From contig CAJXQX010000019.1 of assembly GCA_913058185.1 (NCBI GenBank), positions 1-54,802 on the forward strand: 54,802 nucleotides of DNA, given 5' to 3'. Of this stretch, positions 353-15,679 are shown piece after piece. Below the pieces are notes generated by a model. It searched no databases. It was given only the letters and a program-made list of their open reading frames with translations, and was not told the DNA's origin. A program made the position numbers and the translations under genes. This DNA comes from an uncultured Verrucomicrobiota bacterium (GTDB taxonomy: Bacteria > Verrucomicrobiota > Verrucomicrobiia > Opitutales > Opitutaceae). Numbering within the stretch: position 1 is the stretch's first letter; every line of letters starts with the position of its first letter.

Positions 353-366
353 GGAGGAGAGTCGGT

Positions 367-1287
367 TCAGACGGTCACTTGCGACCAAGCCTCAACGAGT
401 TTGCGTTGGCCGTTGGCGATCATGCTGCGGGGGTTCTCGGAGCCGACGGGTTTCAGTTCGAATGAAACTGCGCCGCGACTGGAACCGTCGCTTTTGAGAT
501 AACCTACTTTAAAAAGCTCATTCAAAAATGAGACGATTTCGGGCACGTCGTTGGCCCCACCCGGGTAGCCGAATCGCGGATGCATGTCACCGTAAGCGGG
601 GTTGGCCTGATCGTCCATGTAGGCGTTACCGATATGAATATGAACGAGGTGATCCTTCACCGGTTGCAGCGCTTCAGCTGGTGATTCGTGCAGTAAAGGG
701 ATATGAGAGAGGTCGACCATCAGTCCGAATGACGGGTGCGTGGCCTTAACGCGTTCGGCAATCTCGCGGGCCGAGTCGGCGGGGCCTACGAGGCATTTTT
801 TGTCGATCGACCGATCAAAGACTTCGAGGGCGACATTGATGCCACGGTCGCTGGCATAGGCACACACTTCATTCATCGATGTGGTCAACGCATCCATGGC
901 GGCAGCAGCATCTGCTTCGCCCGGATATTTACCGCTCAAAAGACCGAAGTCCGTGATGCCCATCTCTGCAGCCTCATCGAGGCCGGCCTTCATTTCGTCG
1001 ACCGCACGTTGGCGGGTTGCGGCCTCGAGGCTGTTGATGTCGAGCCCTTGGGTCAGGAGGCGTGGTTGGGCACCGTATTTGACGGTGACTCCACTCGACT
1101 CCAGCAGGGCCTTGGCTTCGGCTCGGATGGCGGGGTCTTTAATCCAGGAAATTTCGATAACTTCGAAGAAAGGATCCGTCACCAGTTCGGTGAGGGATTC
1201 GATGATGGGGCCTTCGCCTTTGATGACCGGATGGGCCATGAAGTGCACGATGCCGGGACGAACGTAGTGATGAAGCGGTTCTTTCAT
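367..1287 (-). CDS. Sugar phosphate isomerase/epimerase-like TIM-barrel protein
   Basis: A 306-residue cytoplasmic protein without a signal peptide. It resembles the xylose-isomerase-like TIM-barrel superfamily. The expected metal-ligand strands are visible: ALEVFDRS (Glu), GLMVDLSHIPLLHES (Asp and His), HIHIGNAY (His) and SFELKP (Glu). Members isomerise or epimerise sugars, or act as lyases, with a divalent metal. The ATG at 1287 is the first start after the divergent intergenic region. The gene is followed 14 bases later by a 2-hydroxyacid dehydrogenase, suggesting a small sugar-acid pathway. The substrate cannot be read from sequence. Confidence 0.8.
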   Translation of the reverse strand: MKEPLHHYVRPGIVHFMAHPVIKGEGPIIESLTELVTDPFFEVIEISWIKDPAIRAEAKALLESSGVTVKYGAQPRLLTQGLDINSLEAATRQRAVDEMKAGLDEAAEMGITDFGLLSGKYPGEADAAAAMDALTTSMNEVCAYASDRGINVALEVFDRSIDKKCLVGPADSAREIAERVKATHPSFGLMVDLSHIPLLHESPAEALQPVKDHLVHIHIGNAYMDDQANPAYGDMHPRFGYPGGANDVPEIVSFLNELFKVGYLKSDGSSRGAVSFELKPVGSENPRSMIANGQRKLVEAWSQVTV

Positions 1288-2585: not shown

Positions 2586-4424
2586 TTAGACTTGCTCGAG
2601 GAGCTTGTAGAGACGTTGGACCATCGTGGACGGATCTTCGAGGAGACCGGCGGCCAGGAGGGCGTTGTCGTGGAGTTGCTCGGCCATGAGGACGGCTTTG
2701 CCTTCGTTGGAGTCCTTGACCTCGGAGAGCTTCTTGATGACCGCGTGGCGGGGATTGAGTTCGAGGTGCACCTGAACCGGAGGGGCTTCGGCGTCATCAC
2801 CTTCGGGCTTCATCGACTTCATCATCTGGCGCATTTGGGGCGACATGAATTGGTCGGCGTTGAGCACTGCGGCGGGCGAATCGACGAGGCGATCGGAGGA
2901 TTTTACTTCGGCTACCTTCTTACCGAGGGTTTCCTTGAGCCACTTGATGAGGGCGTCGAGTTTGTCTTTTTCGAGGGCTTCACCTTCGGCTTCGTGATCG
3001 CCGAGTTTGAGGTCAGCCGAATCAGCAGCCGTCAGGTTTTTGCCGTCGAACTCGCGCAGGTTACGCATCACGTAGTCGTCCACGTTTTCGAAGCAGTAGA
3101 TGACCTCAAGGTTGCGGGCTTTCAGGCCTTCGAGATACGGACCGCGATCGATGGCATCGCGGCTGGGGCCGATGAGGAAGTAGATTTCCTTTTGTTCCTC
3201 GCCCATGCGTGAAACGTAGTCGGTGAGTGACGTGGTTTTGCCAGCGTCGGTGCGGGAAGACTCGAAGCGGAGGAGTTTCGCGAGGGCGTCCTTGTGGGTG
3301 TGATCGGTTGCAGCGCCTTCTTTGATGAAGATACCAAACTCTGCGTAGAATTTGTCGAAGTCTTCCGGGCGTTTCTTCGCTTCGTCGGCGAGGAATTTGA
3401 GGAAGCGCGTGGTGATGACCTTACCGAGTTTCTCGATCAAGGCGCGGTCCTGCATGGTTTCACGCGAGATGTTGAGAGGGAGATCTTCGCTATCGACGAC
3501 ACCTTTGAGGAAGCGGCCCCACTCAGGGAGCAGATCCTTGGGAGCGGGATCGATGAGGACCTTGCGGCAGTAGAGCGAAACGGCCGGCTCAGCGCGGGTC
3601 ATACCGAATTTCTCGGTGTTGGACTGGGGAACGAAGAGGATCGAGTTGATCGAGAGGGGAGCGTCGGCCGAGAAATGGAGTTTCAGGCGAGGCTCATCAT
3701 AAGCGTGGGCCTGGAATTTGTAGAACTCGGTGTATTCTTCATCGGTGATCTCGTTCTTCGAGCGGAGCCAGAGAGCTGACACCGTGTTGACGTGGTCGCC
3801 GTCGAGGTTGACGGGAAAGGAAACGAAGGAGCTGTAACGCTCGAGGACCGTTTTGACGTGATCCTTCTTGGCGTAGTCTTCGGCGTCGTCCTTGAGTTCG
3901 ATGACGATCTTGGTGCCGCGTTTTTGGTCGGTGACCTCTTCGACGGTGTAAGATCCAGAGCCATCACTGGTCCAGACATTGGCCGGCTCGTCGGCGCGGA
4001 AGGACTTGGAGTAGACCTTGACGGACTTGGCTACCATGAAGGCGGAGTAGAAACCGACGCCGAACTGGCCGATGAGATTATCATTCTTGGCGCCACCTTC
4101 TTTGATGGCATCGAGGAAGGCTTTGGAGCCGGAGTGGGCGATGGTGCCGAGGAACTGGACCAATTCTTCGGCGTTCATGCCGATACCGTGATCCTCAATG
4201 GTCAGGGTCTTGGCCTCTTCGTCGGTCGTGATGTTGATCTCGAGTGCGAGGTCGCCATCGGCGATGTCCTTCTCGGTAAGTTGCGTGTGACGCAGCTTCT
4301 CGAGGGCGTCAGATGCGTTGGAGACCAACTCGCGAACGAAGATCTCTTTCTCAGTATAAAGGGAGTGAACAACGATATCGAGCAGTTGCTTGATTTCGGC
4401 TTGGAACTCGTGGGTTTCAGGCAT
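2586..4424 (-). CDS. htpG: Molecular chaperone HtpG (bacterial Hsp90)
   Basis: 612 residues, the usual size for bacterial Hsp90. The GHKL ATPase domain is complete: RELVSNASDALEKL with Glu32, Asn36 and Asp39, then DHGIGM (78-83) and GQFGVGFYS (near 118). These residues bind ATP-Mg and the conserved Asp78 contacts adenine. A middle domain follows with SRETMQ and the catalytic-loop Arg, then a C-terminal dimerisation region. It ends in KLLEQV without the eukaryotic MEEVD tail. It acts in the cytosol as a homodimeric chaperone. The gene is divergent from an amino-acid symporter; the shared upstream region holds nested inverted repeats but no recognisable CIRCE element. Confidence 0.97.
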   Translation of the reverse strand: MPETHEFQAEIKQLLDIVVHSLYTEKEIFVRELVSNASDALEKLRHTQLTEKDIADGDLALEINITTDEEAKTLTIEDHGIGMNAEELVQFLGTIAHSGSKAFLDAIKEGGAKNDNLIGQFGVGFYSAFMVAKSVKVYSKSFRADEPANVWTSDGSGSYTVEEVTDQKRGTKIVIELKDDAEDYAKKDHVKTVLERYSSFVSFPVNLDGDHVNTVSALWLRSKNEITDEEYTEFYKFQAHAYDEPRLKLHFSADAPLSINSILFVPQSNTEKFGMTRAEPAVSLYCRKVLIDPAPKDLLPEWGRFLKGVVDSEDLPLNISRETMQDRALIEKLGKVITTRFLKFLADEAKKRPEDFDKFYAEFGIFIKEGAATDHTHKDALAKLLRFESSRTDAGKTTSLTDYVSRMGEEQKEIYFLIGPSRDAIDRGPYLEGLKARNLEVIYCFENVDDYVMRNLREFDGKNLTAADSADLKLGDHEAEGEALEKDKLDALIKWLKETLGKKVAEVKSSDRLVDSPAAVLNADQFMSPQMRQMMKSMKPEGDDAEAPPVQVHLELNPRHAVIKKLSEVKDSNEGKAVLMAEQLHDNALLAAGLLEDPSTMVQRLYKLLEQV

Positions 4425-4475
4425 GATGGGTGTTTTCGGTTTTCGAACTACGTTTTGGATTGAAGTGAAGCCGCC

Positions 4476-4550
4476 GAAGGTTGGCGGATTAAAAAGGAGC
4501 TAAGGATTGTTGTTCCTTAGACTGAAAAATCAAGTGCGCGCCGAACCTTC
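4476..4550. promoter_or_regulatory. Nested inverted repeats in the htpG upstream region
   Basis: An inner perfect repeat CTAAGGA (4500-4506) / TCCTTAG (4514-4520) with a 7-base spacer is enclosed by GAAGGTTGGCG (4476-4486) / CGCCGAACCTTC (4539-4550), which pair with one extra base. The element lies 52-126 bases upstream of htpG and 113 or more bases before the divergent symporter. It could be an operator or a leader hairpin. It does not match the CIRCE consensus, whose arms are 9 bp with a 9-base spacer. Confidence 0.4.
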
Positions 4551-4662
4551 TTAGATTTTGGCCACAATAGTAGCTTGGTTTTGTGAGGGCATTATGCCTT
4601 TTTTGGGTCGCTTCGGGACGATCAAAGACTGATTGGCCCGGTTCATGTTACCCTCGATTTGT

Positions 4663-6180
4663 ATGATTTTTCGCCGTATTTCGCTTTTTCTCCTGTTAGT
4701 TACATTAATGGCCGCGTGGGCTCCCGAAGCCTTGGCTCAGGCCGATACGGCGGAGATTGCCGCCGTCGAGGAGGGGATTGATGCGCAGATCGACAAGGTC
4801 TTCGGCAAAATTGCCAGCCTGATCTTCGCGGTCCTGTTTTTCGAAGTCGCGGGCTTTCCTCTGATTCTAGTTTGGTTAGTCGTTGCAGCACTTACTTTTA
4901 CCATATACTTTAAATTCGTGAATTTCCGCCGATTTGGATTGGCGATCGGAATTGCCCGGGGGAAATACTCGGATCCGACCGAAAAAGGTGAGGTGTCCCA
5001 TTTTCAAGCCCTGACAGCGGCCCTTTCAGGCACGGTTGGGTTGGGCAATATTGCTGGCGTGGCCGTGGCAGTGTCCGTGGGGGGCGCCGGCGCAACGTTT
5101 TGGATGATTGTGGCGGGGCTCCTCGGCATGTCTTCAAAATTCGTAGAATGCACCCTGGGCGTAAAATACCGAAAAATTGACGAGAACGGACGCGTGTATG
5201 GCGGGCCGATGTATTACCTTTCGCAGAGCGGAATGGGTGGGATAGGTAAAGTGCTCGCGGTGATGTTCGCGGTATTTTGTATCGGCGGTTCACTGGGCGG
5301 CGGGAACATGTTCCAGGTGAATCAGGCGTTCCAACAGATCAATAATGTAAGCGGTGGACAGTTTACGGGGTATGGATGGCTGTTTGGTTTGTTCATGGCT
5401 GCGGTCGTAGGTGTCGTGATTATCGGTGGGATTCGCAGTATCGCGCAGGCGACTTCCAAGATCGTGCCGCTGATGTGTGGGATCTACATGCTCGCCGCGA
5501 TTGCCGTATTGATTGCGAACATTGACGCCGTTCCTGCTGCTATCGGTCAGATCTTTACGGAAGCTTTCACCGGTGATGCCGCCAAGGGCGGAGTGCTTGG
5601 TGCCATGATTCAAGGCTTCCGCCGCGCGGCCTTTTCGAACGAAGCGGGAATTGGTTCTGCTTCGATTGCCCACTCTGCTGTGAAGACCAACAATCCGGCT
5701 TCAGAGGGTTTGGTCTCCCTGCTAGAGCCGTTCATCGATACCGTGATCGTTTGCTCGATGACAGCGTTGGCGATTCTGGTTTCAGGCCAACACTTGGTCG
5801 GTGGTGCCGATGGGGTGGCTTTGACCTCGAATGCGTTTCAAACCGTGATCCCTTGGTTCGACAAAGTCTTGGTGGTCGTCGTGACGTTGTTCGCGTTTTC
5901 GACCATGATTTCTTGGAGCTACTACGGTGAACAGGCGTGGTGTTACCTGTTTGGTGAAAAGAATTGGATCAAGGTCGCCTATAAACTCCTGTTTTGTGTG
6001 TTTGTGGTGATCGGCGCGGCGGTGTCACTCAGCGGAGTATTGGATTTCTCCGATGCGATGATTTTCGCCATGGCCTTTCCAAATATCATCGGACTCTACT
6101 TCCTGATGCCGGTCGTCAGGCGTGAGTTGGACGACTATCTAGGCAAAATCGAATCAGGCGAAATTATCCGCCAAAAATAG
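4663..6180 (+). CDS. Sodium:alanine/glycine symporter family protein (AGCS)
   Basis: About 505 residues from the ATG at 4663; ATG 4645 and TTG 4633 are in frame. The later start gives an ordinary signal-like N-terminus, [15 protein letters not shown], followed by a short soluble stretch. About ten hydrophobic helices follow. AGCS signatures are clear: [49 protein letters not shown] and [15 protein letters not shown]. The family imports alanine, glycine or related amino acids with Na+ across the inner membrane. The extra N-terminal segment with a likely cleavable signal is longer than in the classic proteins. No co-transcribed partner is apparent; the gene is divergent from htpG. Confidence 0.9.
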
Positions 6181-6299
6181 CCGGGTAAGGCGAACCTCTT
6201 GGCTTCGGAGTGGAGTCAGGTGCGTTTTCCTAGATTGCAGGGAACCTGATCGGCTTTGACCTCGTCAAAAAGACGTCTTCCTCGAACACTTTGACGCGC

Positions 6300-8357
6300 A
6301 TGCATCCAACTTCGGTATCTTGGTTCCGCTCGGGACTTATCGTCTCGATCCTATCTCTGGGGTTCGGCCTGAGTGGGTGTCAGAATCCGAGTGGTGATAC
6401 GGAATCTGACTCCGCTATCGCAGAAGCGGAGAAAAGCGCCGCAGTGGATGCAGAAATCGCCGCGGCTCGTGCAGCTGGCAAAGAAGCGAATCGCCAGCTC
6501 GATCTCGATCGTCAAACCCTGCAACTTGCGGCGTGGCAGCACGTGAAGGCGATTTCCGGAATGTGGGCAGAGTTACCTCCGGATCTTTTCCCGGGACTCA
6601 CCACGTTGGTGGATCAAGTGGAGACGCTGCGGGAACAAATTGAACAAGATAGTCGGATTCTGATGGGGATGATTGAACCCGAAAAACTCACCACTCAAAA
6701 TCCGGCATATTGGCGGGCGGTCATGGAGACCAACCCCGAGGACCCCGTGGTGGACATGTTTGAGCAGATGCTTTGGATGGCTCGGGGAAATTTTGATCGA
6801 GCGTTGTGGTTGATCGAGATCCACCGCTACGGGCCGGCGTTGCCGTCCAACGTGCACAAAATCATTTACTCGATGGCCGATGAAATGCGTCGAGTCCGAA
6901 GTCAACAATCGGTGCGTCGCAATTCATTGCTCAAAAACGTGGAGCCCGCGGAAGTGGCCAAGGTCATAGCGACGGCCCGGAGTTTCCAGCCGGGCGACCC
7001 GGACTGGGCATTGATGACTATTATTGTGCGTCTGCAGATGAGTGGGGTGCCGATGGGTGATCTCGCTTCTCGAACCGAAACCGTTGATTATTTGGTCGGC
7101 CAGATGCGCGATGAATGGAGCATTGTTGCGCGCAATAACCCGATGATGGGAGCGCGTCTTTCGCCGGATCGGTTGCAACGCGAATCAGCTGAATCACTAG
7201 CCGATTTGTTGGAGGATTTGAGTCGCAGTCGTGGTGCCTTTGGCGGCCGGGATGTGGTGCGATTGGGTGAAGCATTGGCCGAAACCGGCTTCTATGCGGA
7301 GGCGCTACTCGCCCGTCAACGGGCGACGGCTTTGCGCGGATTTACGGTGCCGTCTGATACGCAAATTTGGTGGGAGTGGTTACCTAAATTGATCGGTGAG
7401 GAAGAGACCGACCAACTCGAAGCCGATGCCATGGCGGGGCTGATCCGTCCCGTGACCTTTTTCCAGACTGAGCAGGGGCCCGAGGGCGTGAGTTTGTTAC
7501 CACTGCACCCGATTCTGACCGAGCGAAACTTGCGTCGTTTGCAGGAGGTGCAGAGACGACTCGAGATGCCCGATCTCACGGATGAATCCAAGACTTCGGC
7601 TTTGATAACCCTGGCCGAAACTTTAGGACATCTTGGACGTTGGGATAAAGCGACTGAGGCGTTGGCGGAAGTGCCCGTTGAATTTTCCGCCGCGGCCGCG
7701 CCCATGCGGGTGTGGGTGTCACTCTGGAGTGGCCGAGTCCAGGGTATCGAGGAACATGTCGCTGAGATTGATGAGCTGACATTGGTATCCTCCCCGGCTC
7801 TGCCAGCACTAGCACACGCCTCACAAGGAGAATGGGGCAAAGGTGCGGAGGTATTTTTAATATCCGCGCGATCGGAAGACGTCGCGAAGGAATACCGGAC
7901 TTATTATGCTATGATGGCATCGGCGTTTTTGCGCTTGGCGGGTGATGAGAAAGTCGCGGATGAACTCATCCAGGAGGCGCGTGCCTTGGGCGAAGGCTTG
8001 GAGTGGGTGAGTATGCTCGTGCGGGGCATGGAGGGAGAAAATTTGAGCAGCCCGGTAGGCAGCGATGTGACCGAAATTACGGAGGCAGGTCGCGTATGCG
8101 AACAACGTTTCTACCGAGCATTTCAACCAGATATTTCGCCTGTGCTTCAGCGTTCTCTGTTGGAAGATTGTGTCTCAACTGGAGTGGTGGATTTTGTGGA
8201 ATACACCGCGTCGTTGTTGCGTTTGCGACAACTTGACCCCGAGCGTTGGGATCCGACTCAAGTTCCCGAGGCGGAGACTGCTGACGACGATTCTGAAAAC
8301 GAAGAAAACGAGGATTGGACGAGTGATGCCAATCCAAGTTGGTCGATCCCATCCTGA
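6300..8357 (+). CDS. Large periplasmic/outer-membrane lipoprotein, first of a tandem paralogous pair
   Basis: About 685 residues. The ATG at 6300 is preferred to the in-frame TTG at 6291. It has a lipoprotein signal with lipobox LSGC (Cys27), followed by an acidic, Ala-rich helix. The rest is largely helical and repeat-like (TPR/HEAT-like spacing, for example ALITLAETLGHLGRWDKATE). I do not recognise a named family. It shares block-wise similarity with the next gene: NPAYWRAVMETNPEDP, then WLPKLIGEE, then a segment around TSALITLAETLGHLG, then a C-terminal block with two Cys separated by 23 residues (RVCEQRF ... LLEDCVSTG). The C-terminus is an acidic Asp/Glu/Asn-rich tail. Only 2 bases separate it from the paralogue, so they are co-transcribed. 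Function unknown; an envelope scaffold or complex partner is possible. Confidence 0.75.
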   Translation: MHPTSVSWFRSGLIVSILSLGFGLSGCQNPSGDTESDSAIAEAEKSAAVDAEIAAARAAGKEANRQLDLDRQTLQLAAWQHVKAISGMWAELPPDLFPGLTTLVDQVETLREQIEQDSRILMGMIEPEKLTTQNPAYWRAVMETNPEDPVVDMFEQMLWMARGNFDRALWLIEIHRYGPALPSNVHKIIYSMADEMRRVRSQQSVRRNSLLKNVEPAEVAKVIATARSFQPGDPDWALMTIIVRLQMSGVPMGDLASRTETVDYLVGQMRDEWSIVARNNPMMGARLSPDRLQRESAESLADLLEDLSRSRGAFGGRDVVRLGEALAETGFYAEALLARQRATALRGFTVPSDTQIWWEWLPKLIGEEETDQLEADAMAGLIRPVTFFQTEQGPEGVSLLPLHPILTERNLRRLQEVQRRLEMPDLTDESKTSALITLAETLGHLGRWDKATEALAEVPVEFSAAAAPMRVWVSLWSGRVQGIEEHVAEIDELTLVSSPALPALAHASQGEWGKGAEVFLISARSEDVAKEYRTYYAMMASAFLRLAGDEKVADELIQEARALGEGLEWVSMLVRGMEGENLSSPVGSDVTEITEAGRVCEQRFYRAFQPDISPVLQRSLLEDCVSTGVVDFVEYTASLLRLRQLDPERWDPTQVPEAETADDDSENEENEDWTSDANPSWSIPS

Positions 8358-8359
8358 AT

Positions 8360-10198
8360 ATGAAAATCAATTGGAGACAGTTTCTGGCTGGAGGGCTGCT
8401 AGTGGGATTGGCCGGGTGCGCTTCCCTCTCGAATCCTCTGGATGATTTAGCCGCGACCAAACTCGATGTGCAGGACCAGGCTTGGGGAGAGGTCAAAGAT
8501 CTCACGGCGTCGCTTGAGCGAATCGATTCTGCTGCGAATCCCGGTATCGCCGCGCTGGTTGGAGAACTGCAGAGCCTGATCAACCAAGTTGAGGCAACGC
8601 CGACTCCGGATTACGAAGCGATCGATGCTGAAACGCTGATCCGCAAGAATCCAAATTTCTGGCGAGCGATGCTGGAACTCAATCCGACCGACCCGACGTT
8701 GATGGTGCTCGAAGGCATGATATTGGGCGCAGCTGGTCACGTTGAAAACGCCTCTGATATTCTCGAATTGTCGAGAGCGGGTCCTTTGTTGGAAAAAGAG
8801 ATCGATCAGAAGTTGGTGATGCAGCGGCGCACGATCGCGATGTATGGTCTTAATTCTCCAGGGATTGAACTATTGAGGGCAGAGGGGCTTGCGGCTGATC
8901 AACGGTGGGAGCCGGTCAAGCGGATGGAGCAAAGATATCCGGAATCGGCCGCGGCCGCATTGGCAGTGCTACAGATGCGATGTGATCTGGCCGGAGTGGA
9001 TTTAACTCCAGCGAGCACGGACCAACGGATGCGCGATAAAATTTTGGCGGCCGAGCCCGGAGCGGTTGAGACGTTACAGAAATTTAAGCCCTTGTGGGCG
9101 GCTCTCATAACGGCGAATGGCGAGGCCGGTGATGCGGCGCGCCGGGTCGCGGAGATGCTGACTCCGGACGGCACGGGGGTAATCAATTTTAGTGAAGAAG
9201 ATTTCGAAAAACTGGTGGCTGATTTAAACCGGGTAGGCGCGACGGATTGGGCCCTGCGAGCCTCCCGATTACAGATGGCGCAACGAGGAGGGCATAATAG
9301 TTCTGATATCCAGGTATGGCGACTCATGTTGCCCGATTTGATCGGTGAGGAAGCGGCGCAAGCCATGATTTCCGATTGGGAAAATGGACAGATGTCAGGA
9401 GCGAAAATTTATACGACGGTGGCAGAGCCGACAGGAACGGTAGATCATCCGATGAATTCATTGGTGGGTGGGCACTATGAACGCCGTCGCCGTGATGCGG
9501 CGTTGATGTTGGAAAGTGGTTTGGCGACGGATATTGAGAAAACCAGCGCTCTGCTGTTTCTAGCCGAGAGTGCGATTCACCTCGGTAAGTATGACGAAGC
9601 TGAACGGGCGCTGAGTGAGTATGCCCCCATTGCGACCGATCCGCGATCGGTCGCGCAACAACAACTGCAATTGGCGATGGTGCGTGGGGATAAAGTCGGT
9701 GCCGCGATGGCATTGAAGGAAGTGCGCAAACGTGATCGCCGCTTGGCCTATTCAAACTTTATTGCGGGAAATGCGGAGATCATGGCGGGAAATTGGAAAG
9801 CCGCATCGGATGCATTTATACGTGGGTATAAGAATGACCTAGCCGATCCGATGCGTCGGGGATTCGCGGCATTGCATGCTTATGGCGCGGGCCAACTGGC
9901 GGGTGACGACCGATCCGATGACTTACGCGACGCTTTAGACGTGGTGGAGGAGGATTCGTGGATCTCGAAGCTGCTCCAAGGGGCGCTGGGCGACATGGAT
10001 CGAGAACAGTTGCTCGCGACGGCCGATGAAGGACGTGATTATATCATTACCGGACAACGCTGTGAGGCCTACTTTGCTTTGGCATTTGCCCCCGGGCAGA
10101 CGATCGCCGGGCGACGGGCGGATCTCACCGCGTGTCGAGATACCGGAATGGTCGGATATATCGAATATGAATTCGCGCGGCAGTGGCTGAAACACTGA
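8360..10198 (+). CDS. Large lipoprotein, second of the tandem paralogous pair
   Basis: 612 residues from the ATG at 8360, two bases after the previous stop; an in-frame TTG at 8339 would overlap and is less likely. Lipobox LAGC ends at Cys20. It mirrors the preceding protein without its acidic tail: NPNFWRAMLELNPTDP (about 97-112), LPDLIGEEAAQ, TSALLFLAESAIHLGKYDE, and a C-terminal block with Cys ... Cys at the same 23-residue spacing (QRCEAYFALAF ... LTACRDTG), ending at GYIEYEFARQWLKH. The conserved Cys pair in two otherwise diverged lipoproteins suggests a disulfide in an oxidising compartment. TPR-like helical repeats are likely by eye. No enzyme motif is visible, and the family name is unknown to me. 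Confidence 0.75.
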   Translation: MKINWRQFLAGGLLVGLAGCASLSNPLDDLAATKLDVQDQAWGEVKDLTASLERIDSAANPGIAALVGELQSLINQVEATPTPDYEAIDAETLIRKNPNFWRAMLELNPTDPTLMVLEGMILGAAGHVENASDILELSRAGPLLEKEIDQKLVMQRRTIAMYGLNSPGIELLRAEGLAADQRWEPVKRMEQRYPESAAAALAVLQMRCDLAGVDLTPASTDQRMRDKILAAEPGAVETLQKFKPLWAALITANGEAGDAARRVAEMLTPDGTGVINFSEEDFEKLVADLNRVGATDWALRASRLQMAQRGGHNSSDIQVWRLMLPDLIGEEAAQAMISDWENGQMSGAKIYTTVAEPTGTVDHPMNSLVGGHYERRRRDAALMLESGLATDIEKTSALLFLAESAIHLGKYDEAERALSEYAPIATDPRSVAQQQLQLAMVRGDKVGAAMALKEVRKRDRRLAYSNFIAGNAEIMAGNWKAASDAFIRGYKNDLADPMRRGFAALHAYGAGQLAGDDRSDDLRDALDVVEEDSWISKLLQGALGDMDREQLLATADEGRDYIITGQRCEAYFALAFAPGQTIAGRRADLTACRDTGMVGYIEYEFARQWLKH

Positions 10199-10263
10199 CC
10201 GTGGGTTGCAATTCGTTCTTTTGTCGAGCGAGCAGGGTTGTCTAACTTCGGGAATTGTCGCTC

Positions 10264-11775
10264 ATGAGTAAGTCATCCGGAAATCCTCGAACCCCGACTC
10301 TAACCGAGGCGCTCATTCCGGTGGGAGCGTTGGTGGTGTTTTTGGCGGGATCGGTATTGAACCTGAATGAGCTTCCGACGCTGGTGGTGATAACACCGCT
10401 CCTTTCTGCTTTGGCTTCAGTGCCCCTGGTTGGGGGAGTGCTTTATGAATCCATTCCGGTGCAAATTCCCTTGGCGGCGGCAACGGTAGTAGCAGCTATC
10501 ATGGCAGGTCGGTTGGGGGCAAATTGGCGTGAAGTTCAACAAGGCATGGTCAATGGCATCATGCACTCGCTGGGTTCGATTTTGATTTTGTTGGCAGTGG
10601 GCATGCTGATCGGTGTCTGGATTGCCAGTGGAGTGGTGCCGATGTTGATCACGTGGGGACTCCAGTTGATGTCTCCCAGTTATTTTTTGGTGGCCGCTTG
10701 TTTGATATGCGCAGTGGTGTCGTTGGTCACGGGAAGTTCATGGACGACGGCAGGCACGGTGGGGGTGGCTTTGATTGGCGTGGCCCAAGGATTGGGTGTC
10801 TCGCTTCCGATGGCTGCTGGGGCGATTGTCTCGGGGGCTTATTTTGGTGATAAAATGTCGCCATTGTCGGAGACGACGAATTTGGCGCCCGGAGTGGTGG
10901 GGGTGGATTTATTTAATCATATCCGGCATATGATTTTCACGACAGGCCCAAGTTGGGTAATCGCCCTAGTGCTTTATTATATTATCGGTATTCGACAATC
11001 AGATACGGGAATCGATTCCAATATTTTGGATGTTTTTATCACGGGAATCGAAAGCTCGACCCACATGTCGATCCTGTTGCTGCTGCCGCCATTGTTGGTG
11101 CTCGGACTGGTGATGATGAGGATTCCGGCCCTGCCGGCGTTGGTAGCGGGAATTCTTTCCGGGGGTTTGGCGGCAATTGGCCTGCAAGGGATGGGTTTGG
11201 CGGAGACTCTCGTGGTCGCTTATGGCGGGTTTGTGGCGGATACCGGCAGCGTGGCGGTCGACGATCTACTTACGCGGGGAGGGATGAGCAGCATGTATGG
11301 CACGATTGGAATCGTGCTCTGTGCGATGACCTTCGGTGGGGTGATGGAACGATCCGGTATGTTGGCCCGATTAGCTGAAGCGATTCTGCAGTTCGCCCGC
11401 AACCGGGGAGGATTGGTGGCTTCGACGCTGGCGACGAGCATCGGAATCAATCTCGTCGCGGCGGACCAGTATTTGTCCATTGTGGTGCCAGGGCGAATGT
11501 ATCGACCGGCCTACATCAAAATGGGACTCGATCCAAAGAACCTTTCGCGGTGTATGGAAGACGGTGGCACCATCACCTCCCCGTTGATCCCGTGGAACTC
11601 ATGCGGAGCCTACATGTTCGCGACGTTGGGCGTATTTCCGTTGGCCTATTTACCCTTTGCATTCCTCAACCTCATCAATCCGTTGATCTCGCTGATCTAC
11701 GGTTACACCGGTTGGACCATGACCCCTCTTGAATCGAACGAGAGCGAATCCTCTGAAATCGAGAACATCGTATGA
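10264..11775 (+). CDS. nhaC: Na+/H+ antiporter, NhaC family
   Basis: 503 residues, start at ATG 10264 (an in-frame TTG lies 9 bases upstream). It has roughly a dozen hydrophobic helices. Diagnostic NhaC motifs are present: LVTGSSWTTAGTVGVAL (about 154-170) and GAYFGDKMSPLSETTNLAP (191-209), where the acidic and polar residues line the ion path. NhaC proteins exchange cytoplasmic Na+ for external H+, or related organic-acid pairs in the family, at the inner membrane. The stop overlaps the start of the LptF/G-like gene by 4 bases (ATGA), showing translational coupling. It follows the lipoprotein pair by 65 bases and may share their transcript. Confidence 0.9.
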   Translation: MSKSSGNPRTPTLTEALIPVGALVVFLAGSVLNLNELPTLVVITPLLSALASVPLVGGVLYESIPVQIPLAAATVVAAIMAGRLGANWREVQQGMVNGIMHSLGSILILLAVGMLIGVWIASGVVPMLITWGLQLMSPSYFLVAACLICAVVSLVTGSSWTTAGTVGVALIGVAQGLGVSLPMAAGAIVSGAYFGDKMSPLSETTNLAPGVVGVDLFNHIRHMIFTTGPSWVIALVLYYIIGIRQSDTGIDSNILDVFITGIESSTHMSILLLLPPLLVLGLVMMRIPALPALVAGILSGGLAAIGLQGMGLAETLVVAYGGFVADTGSVAVDDLLTRGGMSSMYGTIGIVLCAMTFGGVMERSGMLARLAEAILQFARNRGGLVASTLATSIGINLVAADQYLSIVVPGRMYRPAYIKMGLDPKNLSRCMEDGGTITSPLIPWNSCGAYMFATLGVFPLAYLPFAFLNLINPLISLIYGYTGWTMTPLESNESESSEIENIV

Positions 11776-12884
11776 CCCTCATTGATCGCTACATCTTACG
11801 AGAGTGGTTGAGTGCTCTGGCGCTCGTGCTGGGTGCAACCGTCGGCATGCTGTTGATGCAGTCAATGTATGATGATTTGGACGACCTCCTCTATGTGGGT
11901 GCAGGAGTGGTCGATATCGTTTTTTATTACGCGGTTAAGTTACCGAGCTTTTTGTCGATCGTGCTGACGTTGGCGCTGTTGCTTTCGTTGCTGTTCACCC
12001 TGGGAAGATTGCACCGGAATCTGGAAATCGCGGCGATGCGAGCAGCGGGATTGAGTCTTTGGCGGATCACGCGAGTGATCTGGGTGTCGGGGGTGCTGCT
12101 GTGCGGACTCACGTGGTATTTAAACGGCACGGTGATTCCTTGGTCGGTAGAGACCTCGCGGGAGATTTTGCAGGATCTAAGGATCAAAGGGCAGGGAAAG
12201 ATCGAGCGAGCTGATCAGGTGGAGTCGGTCAACTCGGTGGCTTTCGATAACCGGCAAGAACGGCGGATGTGGTTCATGAACCGCTACAGTCGCTACACGT
12301 CTCGTGGCTATGGAGTGACCGTGACGGAACTCGACGCGCAACGTCGGGAGAAAACGCGACTTCAGGCCCGTGAAGCTTGGTATGATGACGCCTTAGGTGG
12401 ATGGCAGTTCCGCGATGGTCGTGAAACATGGATCGACCCTGAGACCGGGGAGGTGCAGCGCACCCTTCCATTCGAGGAGCACTTTGTTGGTCACTATCAC
12501 GAAGACCCGAAACTCATTCTGGTATTTGACCAACGGCCTCAGGACTTATCATTTTTTGAATTGGAACGGGTGATTACCTATCACCAAGCGGAGGACGATC
12601 CGAAGCTCAAACGATACGCGGTGCGCTACTACAGTCTCTTGGCCGAGACTTTGGGCGCGCTCATCATCATCTCGCTGGCCATTCCTTTCGCAGTTTCGGG
12701 CGTTCGAGTGAATCCGGCAGTAGGCGTTTCCAAATCCATTGGTCTGTTTCTGCTCTACTTCGTATTTTTCAAAGCGAGCACGGCGTTGGGCGCACGAGGC
12801 ACGTTGGATCCAATGTGGGCAGCATTGGTGCCCAATTTGACCATGCTCCTTCTCGGAGTGGGCTTTATGTCGCGAGTGCGATAG
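11772..12884 (+). CDS. LptF/LptG (YjgP/YjgQ) family lipopolysaccharide-export permease
   Basis: 370 residues with the family architecture: three N-terminal membrane segments (about 12-35, 50-75, 100-117), a periplasmic beta-rich domain of about 160 residues, and three C-terminal membrane segments (about 285-368). It opens with MTLIDRYILREWL, the usual LptF/G beginning, and ends with the hydrophobic FLLYFVFFKASTALGARG and PNLTMLLLGVGF pattern. In the Lpt machine two such subunits pair with LptB ATPase to lift LPS from the inner membrane. Only one copy is here; the partner must lie elsewhere. It overlaps nhaC by 4 bases and ends 5 bases before a converging gene. I cannot tell LptF from LptG. 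Confidence 0.88.
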   Translation: MTLIDRYILREWLSALALVLGATVGMLLMQSMYDDLDDLLYVGAGVVDIVFYYAVKLPSFLSIVLTLALLLSLLFTLGRLHRNLEIAAMRAAGLSLWRITRVIWVSGVLLCGLTWYLNGTVIPWSVETSREILQDLRIKGQGKIERADQVESVNSVAFDNRQERRMWFMNRYSRYTSRGYGVTVTELDAQRREKTRLQAREAWYDDALGGWQFRDGRETWIDPETGEVQRTLPFEEHFVGHYHEDPKLILVFDQRPQDLSFFELERVITYHQAEDDPKLKRYAVRYYSLLAETLGALIIISLAIPFAVSGVRVNPAVGVSKSIGLFLLYFVFFKASTALGARGTLDPMWAALVPNLTMLLLGVGFMSRVR

Positions 12885-12889
12885 CGTGC

Positions 12890-14662
12890 TTAGGGTGACG
12901 GCTCTAAGTCGTCTAGTTGCTTACCGAGTGCCGCGATGAATTGAACGGCCTCTGCATTCATGGCGCGGGTTTCGGCGAACTGTAGAATACTACGAGCGGT
13001 TTTCCATTTTCCGCGGGCGGCCTGCATCCGCACCAAACGGTTGACCAATACCAAATCACGGGGGAAGTGCCTGATGCCGGCAGCGAGAACTGCTACTTCG
13101 TTAACGCTCAAGGGGTGAGCTGCGGTGTCCCAGATCTCGGATAGATCGAGATAAATGGCCACAAATGTAGAGTCAGATCGGTGAGCCCGCAGGAGGAGAT
13201 CGATCGCAGGCTGAACCGCTTCGATCGGCACGGCTTCATCGTCGAGTTGATTGGCGGTGGCTTCTTCGAAAATCAAGCGCGCCAAGACCTGCAAGACGAG
13301 AGGCCGCGTTTCCCCGGCTTCGACTGCGGATGTGAGTTCCGCGAGAGCGTAAGCAGTATTGCCAGCCGCGTATTCGAGCAGTCCAGAGGTGGATTGAAGG
13401 GCAGTGGAAACGGAACCATTTTGGCGGGCCGAGGCGATGGTCTTGCGGGCTCGCTGGAGATACGTTTCGGTGAGGCCGGGATACACCTTTCGCATATGTT
13501 CGGTTTCAAGACGTTCCCACTCAGCCAAGAGCCGAGATACCTCGATGCGAGAGGCTGGCTCAATTTTGACGTCGGGTCGTTTTTGATTTCGAGATGCCGT
13601 AAGCGAAATCTTCTTGGAAGTCGCGGTGGTGAAGAACTGCTCGATCGCGAGTTGAGCCTCGGCAATACTGAGTCCAAATGTGGTTAGGAATCGTTCGTCG
13701 TTGGGTGACTTCACGACGGAGTCGTCCACGAACTTCCAAAGCGCATCCCGGAACTTACCATCTTCAGCAAACAGGCACCAACGCACGAATAGATGGGCGT
13801 GCTTAACCCATATTTGTTTCGACTCGCGATCATCCGGGATCGTTTGGGTGAGAAGAACAAGCAAAGGTAGCGCCAAGCTGGGTGGTGTTGCAGAATCCTC
13901 AACGACGACCAGGGGGGGCAATTTAAGTGGGTCTATGACGATCCGTAATTGGGAGAATTCGCCGTGGTCATAAAGATCGACCAATCCTGTGATGGCCCAC
14001 ACCGGCAGGGCGGGGGCTCGGGTGGCTAGTTGTTGTTTGAGCCGATTGGTGCTGAATCGAAACCCCGCAGTGCGACGGGATGCTCCCGGTGCGGCGAGAG
14101 CATCATCAAAAAAGAACTGGCGACTGTGGGATCCCCTTCCGCCGAGGTCACCTTCATTTAAAAAGGCGAAATTAATCGAACTATCGGCACTGAGTAGGCG
14201 TAGGTTTGGCACATAGCGTTCACGGGCCGAGCGGGAGGTCAGGTTGGATTGAGTTTTCTCGATGATGCGGCCGAGCGCGTCATCTGCCTGGAGTCGGCGG
14301 TTTTTTCGATTTACCACAATAAACGTATCGAAAATGTGAGGCTCCCAGAGGTATCGCAGTGGAATGATTTGCGAAATTAGGTGGGTCTGCTGAAAGTATG
14401 AGAGAGTGAACTCTCGGGCAAACGTGCGGTCGTTGGTGGTGAGGAGCTCGAATCCTCCAGACGTAACTCGAGTCCAATCTTCACCGTTCTCGGGCTCCAC
14501 GTAAAAGGGCGGCAGAGACACGGTGGCACCACCGAATGCCTCCGGTTCCTGGGCCGAGAGTGAATGAGTTGCGCCGACATGAATCCCTAGCAGTGCGAAT
14601 AAAACCCGCCCCAGTTCGGTCGACGATGATTGTCGGAGGCATCGGCGGAGCGTCGCACTCAT
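12890..14662 (-). CDS. Secreted helical-repeat protein of unknown function
   Basis: 590 residues with a probable signal peptide (LGRVLFALLGIHVGATHSLSA) cleaved before QEPEAFGG. The early segment ATVSLPPFYVEP resembles the short N-terminal stretches of verrucomicrobial secreted proteins. A middle domain (about 60-330) is reminiscent of peptidase-MA-like proteins (WAITGLVDLYDHGEFSQL) but no HExxH zinc motif is visible. The C-terminal 250 residues look like TPR-type helices. It starts 13 bases after the diacylglycerol kinase gene, so it is probably the last gene of the seqA-dgkA transcript. I do not recognise a named family. It converges on the LptF/G-like gene with 5 bases between stops. Confidence 0.65.
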   Translation of the reverse strand: MSATLRRCLRQSSSTELGRVLFALLGIHVGATHSLSAQEPEAFGGATVSLPPFYVEPENGEDWTRVTSGGFELLTTNDRTFAREFTLSYFQQTHLISQIIPLRYLWEPHIFDTFIVVNRKNRRLQADDALGRIIEKTQSNLTSRSARERYVPNLRLLSADSSINFAFLNEGDLGGRGSHSRQFFFDDALAAPGASRRTAGFRFSTNRLKQQLATRAPALPVWAITGLVDLYDHGEFSQLRIVIDPLKLPPLVVVEDSATPPSLALPLLVLLTQTIPDDRESKQIWVKHAHLFVRWCLFAEDGKFRDALWKFVDDSVVKSPNDERFLTTFGLSIAEAQLAIEQFFTTATSKKISLTASRNQKRPDVKIEPASRIEVSRLLAEWERLETEHMRKVYPGLTETYLQRARKTIASARQNGSVSTALQSTSGLLEYAAGNTAYALAELTSAVEAGETRPLVLQVLARLIFEEATANQLDDEAVPIEAVQPAIDLLLRAHRSDSTFVAIYLDLSEIWDTAAHPLSVNEVAVLAAGIRHFPRDLVLVNRLVRMQAARGKWKTARSILQFAETRAMNAEAVQFIAALGKQLDDLEPSP

Positions 14663-14675
14663 CGGGAGACAGAAA

Positions 14676-15119
14676 TCAAACGAACCACTCTTCGAGCCGT
14701 CGCCAGACTGCGTTAGAGGGCCAGAGTAAGATGATCCAGACGACGATACAGTTGATATAGGCCACGAATACGGCAGCGCTGCCCATGTCCTTGATCCGTT
14801 TGGCGAGAGGATGGATCTCGGGTCGTAAATAATCGATGGTCCACTCTATGGCTGAATTCAAAAGTTCGACGATCATGATGAGCAGGAGCGAACCGATCAT
14901 CACGGCAGTTGATACTGCATTCACGGGCAGAATCACGGCGAAGGGGACGAGCAGTATCACGAAAAGGAAATCTTCGCGAAAAGACGGTTCGTGTTTCAAC
15001 GCAGCCAAAAACCCGTCGACCGAGTAGCGGATCGAAGCGAAGAAGTTACGCAGATTTCGTCGCTTCAGTTCGTCTTCGCCGGCGGCGGCGGTGGTGGTGG
15101 TGGGAGGTTTTGCGGCCAC
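14676..15119 (-). CDS. dgkA: Diacylglycerol kinase (DgkA type)
   Basis: 147 residues from a GTG at 15119, the first plausible start after the upstream stop; the frame stays open into the preceding gene but no start codon occurs between. It matches small integral-membrane DgkA along its length: SIRYSVDGFLAALKHEPSFREDF, where the Glu binds metal, then IMIVELLNSAIEWTIDYL with the catalytic Glu, then AKRIKDMGSAAVFVA. Three hydrophobic helices follow the amphipathic N-terminus. The enzyme phosphorylates diacylglycerol (or undecaprenol in some bacteria) at the inner membrane, recycling lipid. The Thr/Ala-rich leader is longer than in E. coli. It lies 53 bases after seqA and 13 before the next gene. 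Confidence 0.88.
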   Translation of the reverse strand: MAAKPPTTTTAAAGEDELKRRNLRNFFASIRYSVDGFLAALKHEPSFREDFLFVILLVPFAVILPVNAVSTAVMIGSLLLIMIVELLNSAIEWTIDYLRPEIHPLAKRIKDMGSAAVFVAYINCIVVWIILLWPSNAVWRRLEEWFV

Positions 15120-15172
15120 GCTCGCAAGTTGGACCCCCAGAGCGTTAGGCGGAAGCTTGAAATGAGCGAAGA

Positions 15173-15679
15173 CTAGGACCGCAAAAAACGAAACCGGCTT
15201 GCGGGGCGACTCATTCCGATCGCGTTGCAGGTGTATTCGACCAACGCCTCGGCGTAACCACAGAAATCCAACACCCGGGTGAGAAAACGTCGTTTGGTGG
15301 GGGTGTCGATATTCATGATCGCCCAATAGGGCGTGTCGGGAATCTGACGGGCTTGATTGTAACGACTTTGTTCGAGAATTTCTTCTCGTGACATCGAAAG
15401 GTGCCGGCGGCCTCGATTCAGAAAAATAATGTATTCTCGAAAGTCCGCCGGGTGCTGTGATGCCACCCAGCCCAGGATCGAGAGATATTTGTCCGCATCT
15501 TTGTGCAGCGCCCGAAATTTACCTGAACCGAGAAATCGGATCAATGGGTCATGGGAGGTGACGTTGGCGTGAGGTAGATCGAGTAGGCTAGCGAGGACAT
15601 CATTGGGCTGTTGATTGAAATCTGACGTTAGTTTCTTGAGTGCATCGTAGACATCGTCGGTAACCTCGATCTTCTTCAT
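15173..15679 (-). CDS. seqA: SeqA-like protein (putative hemimethylated-GATC-binding replication regulator)
   Basis: 168 residues from ATG 15679, chosen because similarity to E. coli SeqA begins exactly there (MKKIEVTDDVYDALKK against MKTIEVDDELYSYIAS, the oligomerisation domain); an in-frame ATG at 15748 would add 23 residues. The C-terminal DNA-binding domain aligns throughout: GSGKFRALHKDADKYLSIL, LNRGRRHLS and IPDTPYWAIMNIDTPTKRR against VPGTPYWVITNTNTGRKCS. E. coli residues that contact hemimethylated GATC, Arg116 and Asn150, correspond to Arg91 and Asn123; Asn152 is Asp125 here. It lacks the long E. coli linker but has a short C-terminal tail. SeqA is known mainly from Dam-containing Gammaproteobacteria, so its presence here is unusual. 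It heads a likely operon with dgkA. Confidence 0.85.
   Translation of the reverse strand: MKKIEVTDDVYDALKKLTSDFNQQPNDVLASLLDLPHANVTSHDPLIRFLGSGKFRALHKDADKYLSILGWVASQHPADFREYIIFLNRGRRHLSMSREEILEQSRYNQARQIPDTPYWAIMNIDTPTKRRFLTRVLDFCGYAEALVEYTCNAIGMSRPASRFRFLRS

Follow-up and report, generated by a model that had tools for sequence, protein, structure and literature searches.

The window analysed here is a stretch of 54,802 nucleotides (contig CAJXQX010000019.1, positions 1 to 54,802) from an uncultured Verrucomicrobiota bacterium of the family Opitutaceae, and two adjacent genes in it, which we call A and B, encode lipoproteins whose last ~250 residues are, in the predicted models, a tetratricopeptide repeat (TPR) domain of the NlpI type that ends in NlpI's own C-terminal cap. 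NlpI is an outer-membrane lipoprotein described as a general adaptor for peptidoglycan hydrolases, of which it binds several classes (PMC7049810). We give about an even chance to the reading that A and B, a pair of lipoproteins of the envelope, derive by duplication from a single-copy ancestor in the Opitutaceae and serve as NlpI-like, membrane-tethered scaffolds for several periplasmic cell-wall enzymes; the homology, predicted fold, pairing and neighbourhood were computed, and from these we infer the scaffold role.

Gene A (6300..8357, + strand) encodes 685 residues and gene B (8360..10198, + strand) 612, and the coordinates, lengths and 2-base gap given in the original prediction are all exact. 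By inspection, each protein has a lipobox after a short hydrophobic stretch, LSGC with Cys27 in A (6369..6380, +) and LAGC with Cys20 in B (8408..8419, +), again as first described. The two proteins align by BLASTP with 150 identities over 584 columns (26%, E 3e-42, in a single comparison), which rules out chance similarity and makes homologous the blocks in which their relationship had been recognised (NP..WRA....NP.DP, LP.LIGEE, TSAL..LAE....LG and a C-terminal Cys block), all of which lie within the alignment.

The AlphaFold2 models of A and B were built from an input alignment of six sequences, all of the genus of this bacterium, and are therefore independent of the single-copy relatives described below. 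Both are almost all helix (pLDDT 78.3 and pTM 0.62 for B, 70.7 and 0.53 for A). In a Foldseek search with the B model, NlpI ranks first (6iqs, E 1.1e-4, template modelling (TM) score by target length 0.74), and VIA-align 2, with which the rows returned by Foldseek were re-examined, places residues 365-612 of B on 35-282 of NlpI with Z 21.2 and a root-mean-square deviation of 3.4 for 243 aligned positions. The seven top entries of this re-examination are all NlpI for both proteins: the best other entry for B is RapH with Z 14.1, and for A the NlpI entries run from Z 17.7 to 17.4, with the next at 11.0. The NlpI-like domain spans residues 401-649 of A (7500..8246, +; Z 17.6 to NlpI chain 8xud_A) and 364-612 of B (9449..10195, +; Z 21.2 with 6iqs over 365..612 and 20.9 with 1xnf over 364..612), and in both predicted models the TPR domain and the cap are co-linear with the E. 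coli structure. Structure prediction, which had been proposed as a check, thus returned one kind of fold for the two C-terminal halves, and unrelated folds are ruled out for these halves, both models being NlpI-like.

At the level of sequence, the link from A and B to NlpI passes via the single-copy relatives of other genera, since the genus profile alone gives a weak match to NlpI or none. The genus profile finds these relatives with E 8.7e-50 over 562 columns, and the single-copy profile in turn finds NlpI in a PDB search with E 3.9e-26, its positions 386-633 falling on chain positions 38-287, cap included. With hhalign, the single-copy profile matches NlpI at 99% probability and E 6.8e-18, the controls being an ordinary TPR protein of the same genome (2.6e-5) and five shuffled NlpI sequences (0.47-0.7); a mixed profile of 17 rows gives E 1.8e-14, and the best NCBIfam family for the relative in G028 (G and L numbers are our handles for genomes and loci) is the NlpI model, with E 1.3e-14 and 54.4 bits of the 250 required. 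The view that the two proteins belong to no known family can thus be given up for the C-terminal part, which is NlpI-like by profile searches and by predicted structures. The family scans of A and B themselves stay below threshold: the NCBIfam NlpI model NF008391 (250 bits) returned no row for either at E 0.01, NCBIfam as a whole had no row for A and, for B, a single TPR row below its cut-off (19.6 of 312.2 bits), Pfam gave sub-threshold rows alone, mostly TPR, and PHROGs nothing. E. coli NlpI, searched against the genome of the window, did not match A or B and had two other matches; the better of these, a 326-residue TPR protein, aligns with NlpI 54-199 only, has no cap and was set aside.

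The C-terminal Cys block is the NlpI-type cap. E. coli NlpI reads SETNFYLG and FVEHRYALLEL where B reads CEAYFALA and YIEYEFAR, with a common Trp before them. The cysteines are residues 600 and 624 of A (8097..8099 and 8169..8171, +) and 568 and 592 of B (10061..10063 and 10133..10135, +), and the spacing of 23 residues that was originally noted holds within the genus; it does not extend to the nine relatives from other genera with both cysteines, in which 25 residues lie between them. Besides the lipidated Cys, mature A has no cysteines other than 600 and 624, and the picture is the same in 7/7 A orthologues, where additional cysteines are confined to the signal region; mature B has one more, Cys208. 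An alignment of the cap with 24 rows, from which the contig-cut B of G007 is absent (two further copies of B, truncated in G004 and interrupted in G006, are in no alignment), has Cys/Cys in 21 rows, Ser/Cys in one (G028) and Cys/Val in one (a third paralogue in G002), the remaining row being cut by a contig end. Among the single-copy relatives the pair is present in 9/11, with one Ser/Cys and one cut by a contig end, and E. coli NlpI has Ser and Ala at these positions. The pair likely forms a disulfide. In G052, from another family of the order, a TPR protein whose cap, by eye, has a similar Cys pair is encoded beside a gene that looks like that of a trypsin-like protease, on the same strand (L042, 8851-10515 and 10527-11660), a possible candidate for an adaptor-protease pair.

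Before the NlpI-like domain, both proteins carry a module of ~310 residues, predicted to be helical, that can be aligned across A, B and the single-copy relatives (residues 73-382 of A, 6516..7445, +, with the conserved NPxFWRAxxExxPxDP block; residues 36-345 of B, 8465..9394, +). Within NPxFWRAxxE, the N, W, A and E are invariant across all three groups; the third G002 paralogue was excluded from the alignment in question (A5), and the structure-match rows of A and B barely cover this N-terminal half. A search with the module matched 20/252 genomes of the family at E 1e-6. It may be an independent module, because G170 has a match to it alone, because it occurs in G017 in a protein without a visible cap (L039, by eye), and because G017, G069 and G070 each have a second, shorter match besides the full protein. 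At its other end, after an acidic and variable linker, A finishes in a conserved tail, EDWTSDANPSWSIPS-COOH (8310..8354, +), with the consensus [DE]WT.[GD]A.P[ST]WS[IV]PS-COOH; 7/7 orthologues of A share the ending P[ST]WS[IV]PS, written with differing codons, and the WS[IV]PS ending was found neither in B nor in the single-copy relatives. To judge from its sequence, the tail looks like a binding peptide.

B as query matched 13/57 genomes, its own included, and against the contigs of named genomes it found two loci, both in metagenome-assembled genomes of the Opitutaceae. A mixed profile matched 98/252 genomes of the family at E 1e-5, the remoter of the matches listed mostly by the TPR part alone; outside the genus, the matches listed with more than 400 bits over most of the model are in G028, G017, G023, G070, G069 (cut by a contig end), G119, G123, G124 and G127, and remoter members among them are in G194 and G022. 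In a class-wide sample, 10/384 genomes matched at E 1e-15, and the full-length ones are all in the Opitutaceae. Up to four candidates were scored per genome in the 252-genome profile search, three in the 384 genomes and nine in that for the N-terminal module, so absences are soft.

Within the genus, B is present in 8/8 genomes and A lies directly before it in 7/8, so the side-by-side placement of the paralogues, which BLASTP shows to be a tandem, is borne out beyond the window; the eighth genome, G006 (69% complete), has a B with an inner stop and no A that we could find. One copy is present in the loci seen in other genera. In an unrooted tree of 25 proteins, a single branch separates each of the three groups, A, B and the single copies, from the rest (support 100/100, 100/100 and 99/98); the stem branches of A and B measure 1.41 and 1.1 changes per column. 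The tree agrees with a duplication on the line that led to this genus. The third paralogue (G002, L043, 8985-10829) is very divergent, with no visible lipobox Cys at the chosen start and one of the two cap cysteines; it falls on the A-B side, with its place unsure because its branch is very long (2.84). Between A and B there are 2 bases in our genome, 4 in G001 and 47 in G003, and the genes overlap by 4 in G005, G002 and G007, the distances in these six genomes resting on start codons that we chose. Overlap by 4 bases or a gap of at most 4 in 5/6 suggests coupled, equal synthesis, and A and B are probably translated together. A promoter scan of 6100-13000 gave no match on the + strand (two in all, vs 4.1 in shuffles); terminator-like matches in that interval number 15, vs 6.8 in shuffles, and nearly all lie within genes, one at 6198-6220 being between the preceding symporter gene and A.

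Two known lipoproteins and the single-copy homologues serve for comparison. (i) A and B share with E. coli NlpI the lipobox, the co-linear TPR domain and the cap, but at 685 and 612 residues they are about twice as long as NlpI (294), whose TPR domain comes soon after the anchor, and have the additional N-terminal module; they have the Cys pair where NlpI has Ser and Ala, lack its Prc-binding acidic residues, and are two co-encoded paralogues with other neighbours, nlpI adjoining pnp. Because the curated score, the size and the Prc interface all fail, we do not assign them to NlpI: their class is NlpI-like, not NlpI. (ii) LbcA of Pseudomonas aeruginosa is an open spiral of 11 TPRs with a helical part before the repeats and a single short cap helix at the end (PMC8764530). 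LbcA, an outer-membrane protein, activates CtpA, which it binds through its first helix. Like A and B it is a large TPR lipoprotein, helical throughout its N-terminal part and its repeats, but the structural match is poor (TM 0.26 and 0.29), its whole-length Foldseek rows are weak (7rqf and 8sxf for B, 7rqf for A; 7rqf with E 1.2e-3 for B and 0.054 for A), and its match to the single-copy profile (E 4.8e-7) is confined to the TPRs. (iii) The single-copy Opitutaceae homologues have the same two-part architecture and, in 10/11, a Gly-Cys lipobox-like site after a hydrophobic stretch (by eye, and loose in several); unlike A and B, they are encoded by one gene, have clearer TPRs and lack the tail of A.

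How, then, might such a pair work? Duplication of the single-copy ancestor, in the lineage of this genus, would have given rise to A and B, each composed of a lipid anchor, the helical module of ~310 residues and the C-terminal NlpI-type domain, with its TPR hairpins closed by the cap. As NlpI does, they might hold cell-wall enzymes, perhaps proteases, in one place, and the N-terminal module could add a surface for partner binding or dimerisation where NlpI, which dimerises via its swapped helix h0 (PMC5686067), uses that helix. The genome does hold enzymes of these kinds, a Prc with its full domain set, two further S41 proteases and three M23 matches. By analogy with NlpI, a general scaffold role is most likely; that A and B form a heterodimer is a guess, and so is a role of A's tail as a docking peptide.

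Several results weigh against the scaffold role or the fold on which it is built. A common fold does not show a function, and the partners of A and B are hypothetical. The pTM values of the models are 0.62 and 0.53, and Foldseek with the A model returns nothing at E 0.001; NlpI is its third-ranking row, with 0.011. Neither the genus profile nor B alone finds any PDB chain at E 1 by sequence, and hhalign of the genus profile against NlpI is weak (E 0.0023, probability 12.5%, over 235 columns; controls, E 0.067-0.78 for five shuffles and 0.04 for the TPR protein of the same genome). Three designed TPR chains outscore NlpI in the PDB search with the mixed profile, by their repeats, and one does so with the single-copy profile (1e-35), by its repeats only. 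The contacts of NlpI with the protease Prc, to which NlpI delivers MepS, are also missing: in E. coli, D113, E117, D120 and E124 on the helix TPR2b of NlpI contact R47, R51 and R484 of Prc (PMC5686067). In the MAFFT alignment this acidic quartet is replaced by V446, M450, K453 and K457 in B (the aligned stretch is 9695..9730, +) and by Q, E, A and a gap in A, and in the 17 rows without a gap at the quartet, four acidic residues never occur together. On the other side, the three Arg are replaced by E, L and Y in the Prc of this genome, less surely so in the N-terminal part of the alignment, which is gapped. Finally, NlpC/P60 proteins (PF00877), the type of the MepS that NlpI binds (PMC11211486), gave no match in this genome (99% complete, 159 contigs); the control matched in 9/14 genomes. 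Since the charged contacts have gone from both partners and the search for NlpC/P60 proteins came back empty, docking to Prc of the E. coli type is not supported.

The last points bear directly on an alternative that we consider unlikely, namely that A and B would be substrate adaptors of a C-terminal processing protease of the Prc or CtpA type, to which they would deliver captured cell-wall hydrolases. In its favour, NlpI serves Prc, LbcA serves CtpA and A and B have a predicted NlpI fold; LbcA is among the Foldseek rows, and a protease with a PDZ domain could read A's conserved tail. The enzymes are also at hand: the Prc of this genome (L086, 409-2748) has the full domain set of TSP_NTD, PDZ, S41 and DUF3340, aligns with E. 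coli Prc over 660 columns at 34% identity and retains the catalytic Ser and Lys, and there are two further S41 proteases, one of them of the CtpA type. The C-terminal end of this Prc is longer than that of E. coli Prc and partly acidic (779 vs 682 residues). Besides the lost charged interface and the missing MepS-type substrate, however, Prc (PF17804) occurs in 54/57 genomes, ours included, and the lipoprotein, with B as query, in 13/57, so Prc does not depend on it, and its near-universal presence led us to drop co-occurrence as support. Likewise, tblastn with the three S41 proteases of this genome found none in the surroundings of members and remote relatives (24 loci), and nearby S41 genes were dropped as support.

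A partnership with LptG, A and B then being periplasmic or outer-membrane lipoprotein helpers of lipopolysaccharide (LPS) export, appears quite improbable to us; it comes from the neighbourhood. The order in the window is htpG (2586..4424, -; PF00183), a sodium/alanine symporter gene, A, B, nhaC (10255..11775, +; a Na+/H+ antiporter, PF03553 with E 2.2e-63, 56 bases from B provided that translation begins at the listed TTG), an LptF/G-family gene for a putative LPS-export permease (11772..12884, +; PF03739 with 209.6 bits, above the cut-off), which overlaps nhaC by 4 bases, a convergent gene of 590 residues without a Pfam family (12890-14662, -) and the diacylglycerol kinase gene dagK (14676..15326, -; PF01219). 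The gene next to nhaC fits the LptG model better (182.6 of 240 bits, vs 130.9 of 230 for LptF), and the one further homologue that the genome yielded fits LptF better (159.3 vs 118.1 bits), both staying below the equivalog cut-offs; the genome would thus have one LptG-like and one LptF-like protein. An LptF/G-family gene is near the lipoprotein genes in 8/8 genomes of the genus (for G004 and G007 it lies on a separate contig whose start falls within B) and in 3/11 loci of other genera. It follows B by 135 bases, without nhaC, in G004 (L035), and is on the same strand as the lipoprotein gene in G028, G194 and G022 too; in G006 nhaC is broken. In these three genomes, htpG, the lipoprotein gene, the LptG-like gene and the diacylglycerol kinase gene stand in the same order and orientation, which implies that the linkage predates the genus.

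Against a joint function speak opposite-strand liv-type genes that, by eye, separate the lipoprotein gene from lptG in G028, G194 and G022 (two permeases and two ATPases in each, and two binding proteins in G028 and G022), and, in G002, an opposite-strand reading frame of 598 residues that parts nhaC from lptG; the same-strand run from lipoprotein into lptG is seen in this genus only. Moreover, the stretch seen lacks an LptF/G gene in 8/11 loci of other genera (that of G119 has htpG only; seven, some contig-cut, have neither), and htpG is about as constant a neighbour (6/8 in the genus, 4/11 elsewhere), which points to shared synteny rather than shared function. The LptF/G family is also far wider than these lipoproteins. 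Of the envelope complex with the LptF/G-like protein suggested in the original prediction, the nearby gene stands throughout the genus; the complex itself would rest on position, which the intervening liv-type operon and the loci lacking LptF/G loosen. The order of htpG, lipoprotein, transport genes, lptG and dagK recurs across genera (window 2586-15326; L037, L082, L083), the transport genes within it being exchanged: liv-type in G028, G194 and G022, nhaC in the genus and none in G004. The 590-residue gene evolves fast: its best homologues in G001 and G003 share 30 and 36% identity with it, against 78 and 76% for lptG.

Equally doubtful is that A and B share no task with their neighbours and have diverged into subfunctionalised scaffolds for different partners, each a homodimer like NlpI. 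Their identity of 24% in our alignment A2, their long stem branches, and a long N-terminal helix and acidic tail that A has and B lacks would all fit such a divergence, but the tight spacing of the genes in 5/6 genomes with both starts placed, and the retention of both in 7/8 genomes of the genus, argue against it. As for an obligate A-B heterodimer whose N-terminal modules would link cell-wall remodelling to LPS export via LptG, with the WS[IV]PS-COOH peptide of A bound by the TPR groove of B or by a protease PDZ domain, we hold it to be very unlikely.

To return to the scaffold reading, A and B are a real conserved pair, in which the fold class is already known and the enlarged and duplicated form is new. 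A likely fold can now be assigned to two proteins that lie below every curated Pfam and NCBIfam cut-off. The NlpI papers found deal mostly with E. coli, and in the accessible text of open-licence papers joint mention of NlpI with Verrucomicrobi, or of tetratricopeptide lipoproteins with Opitut, is scant; a duplicated, two-part NlpI-like form near lptG would offer an entry into how cell wall and outer membrane are coordinated in these bacteria.

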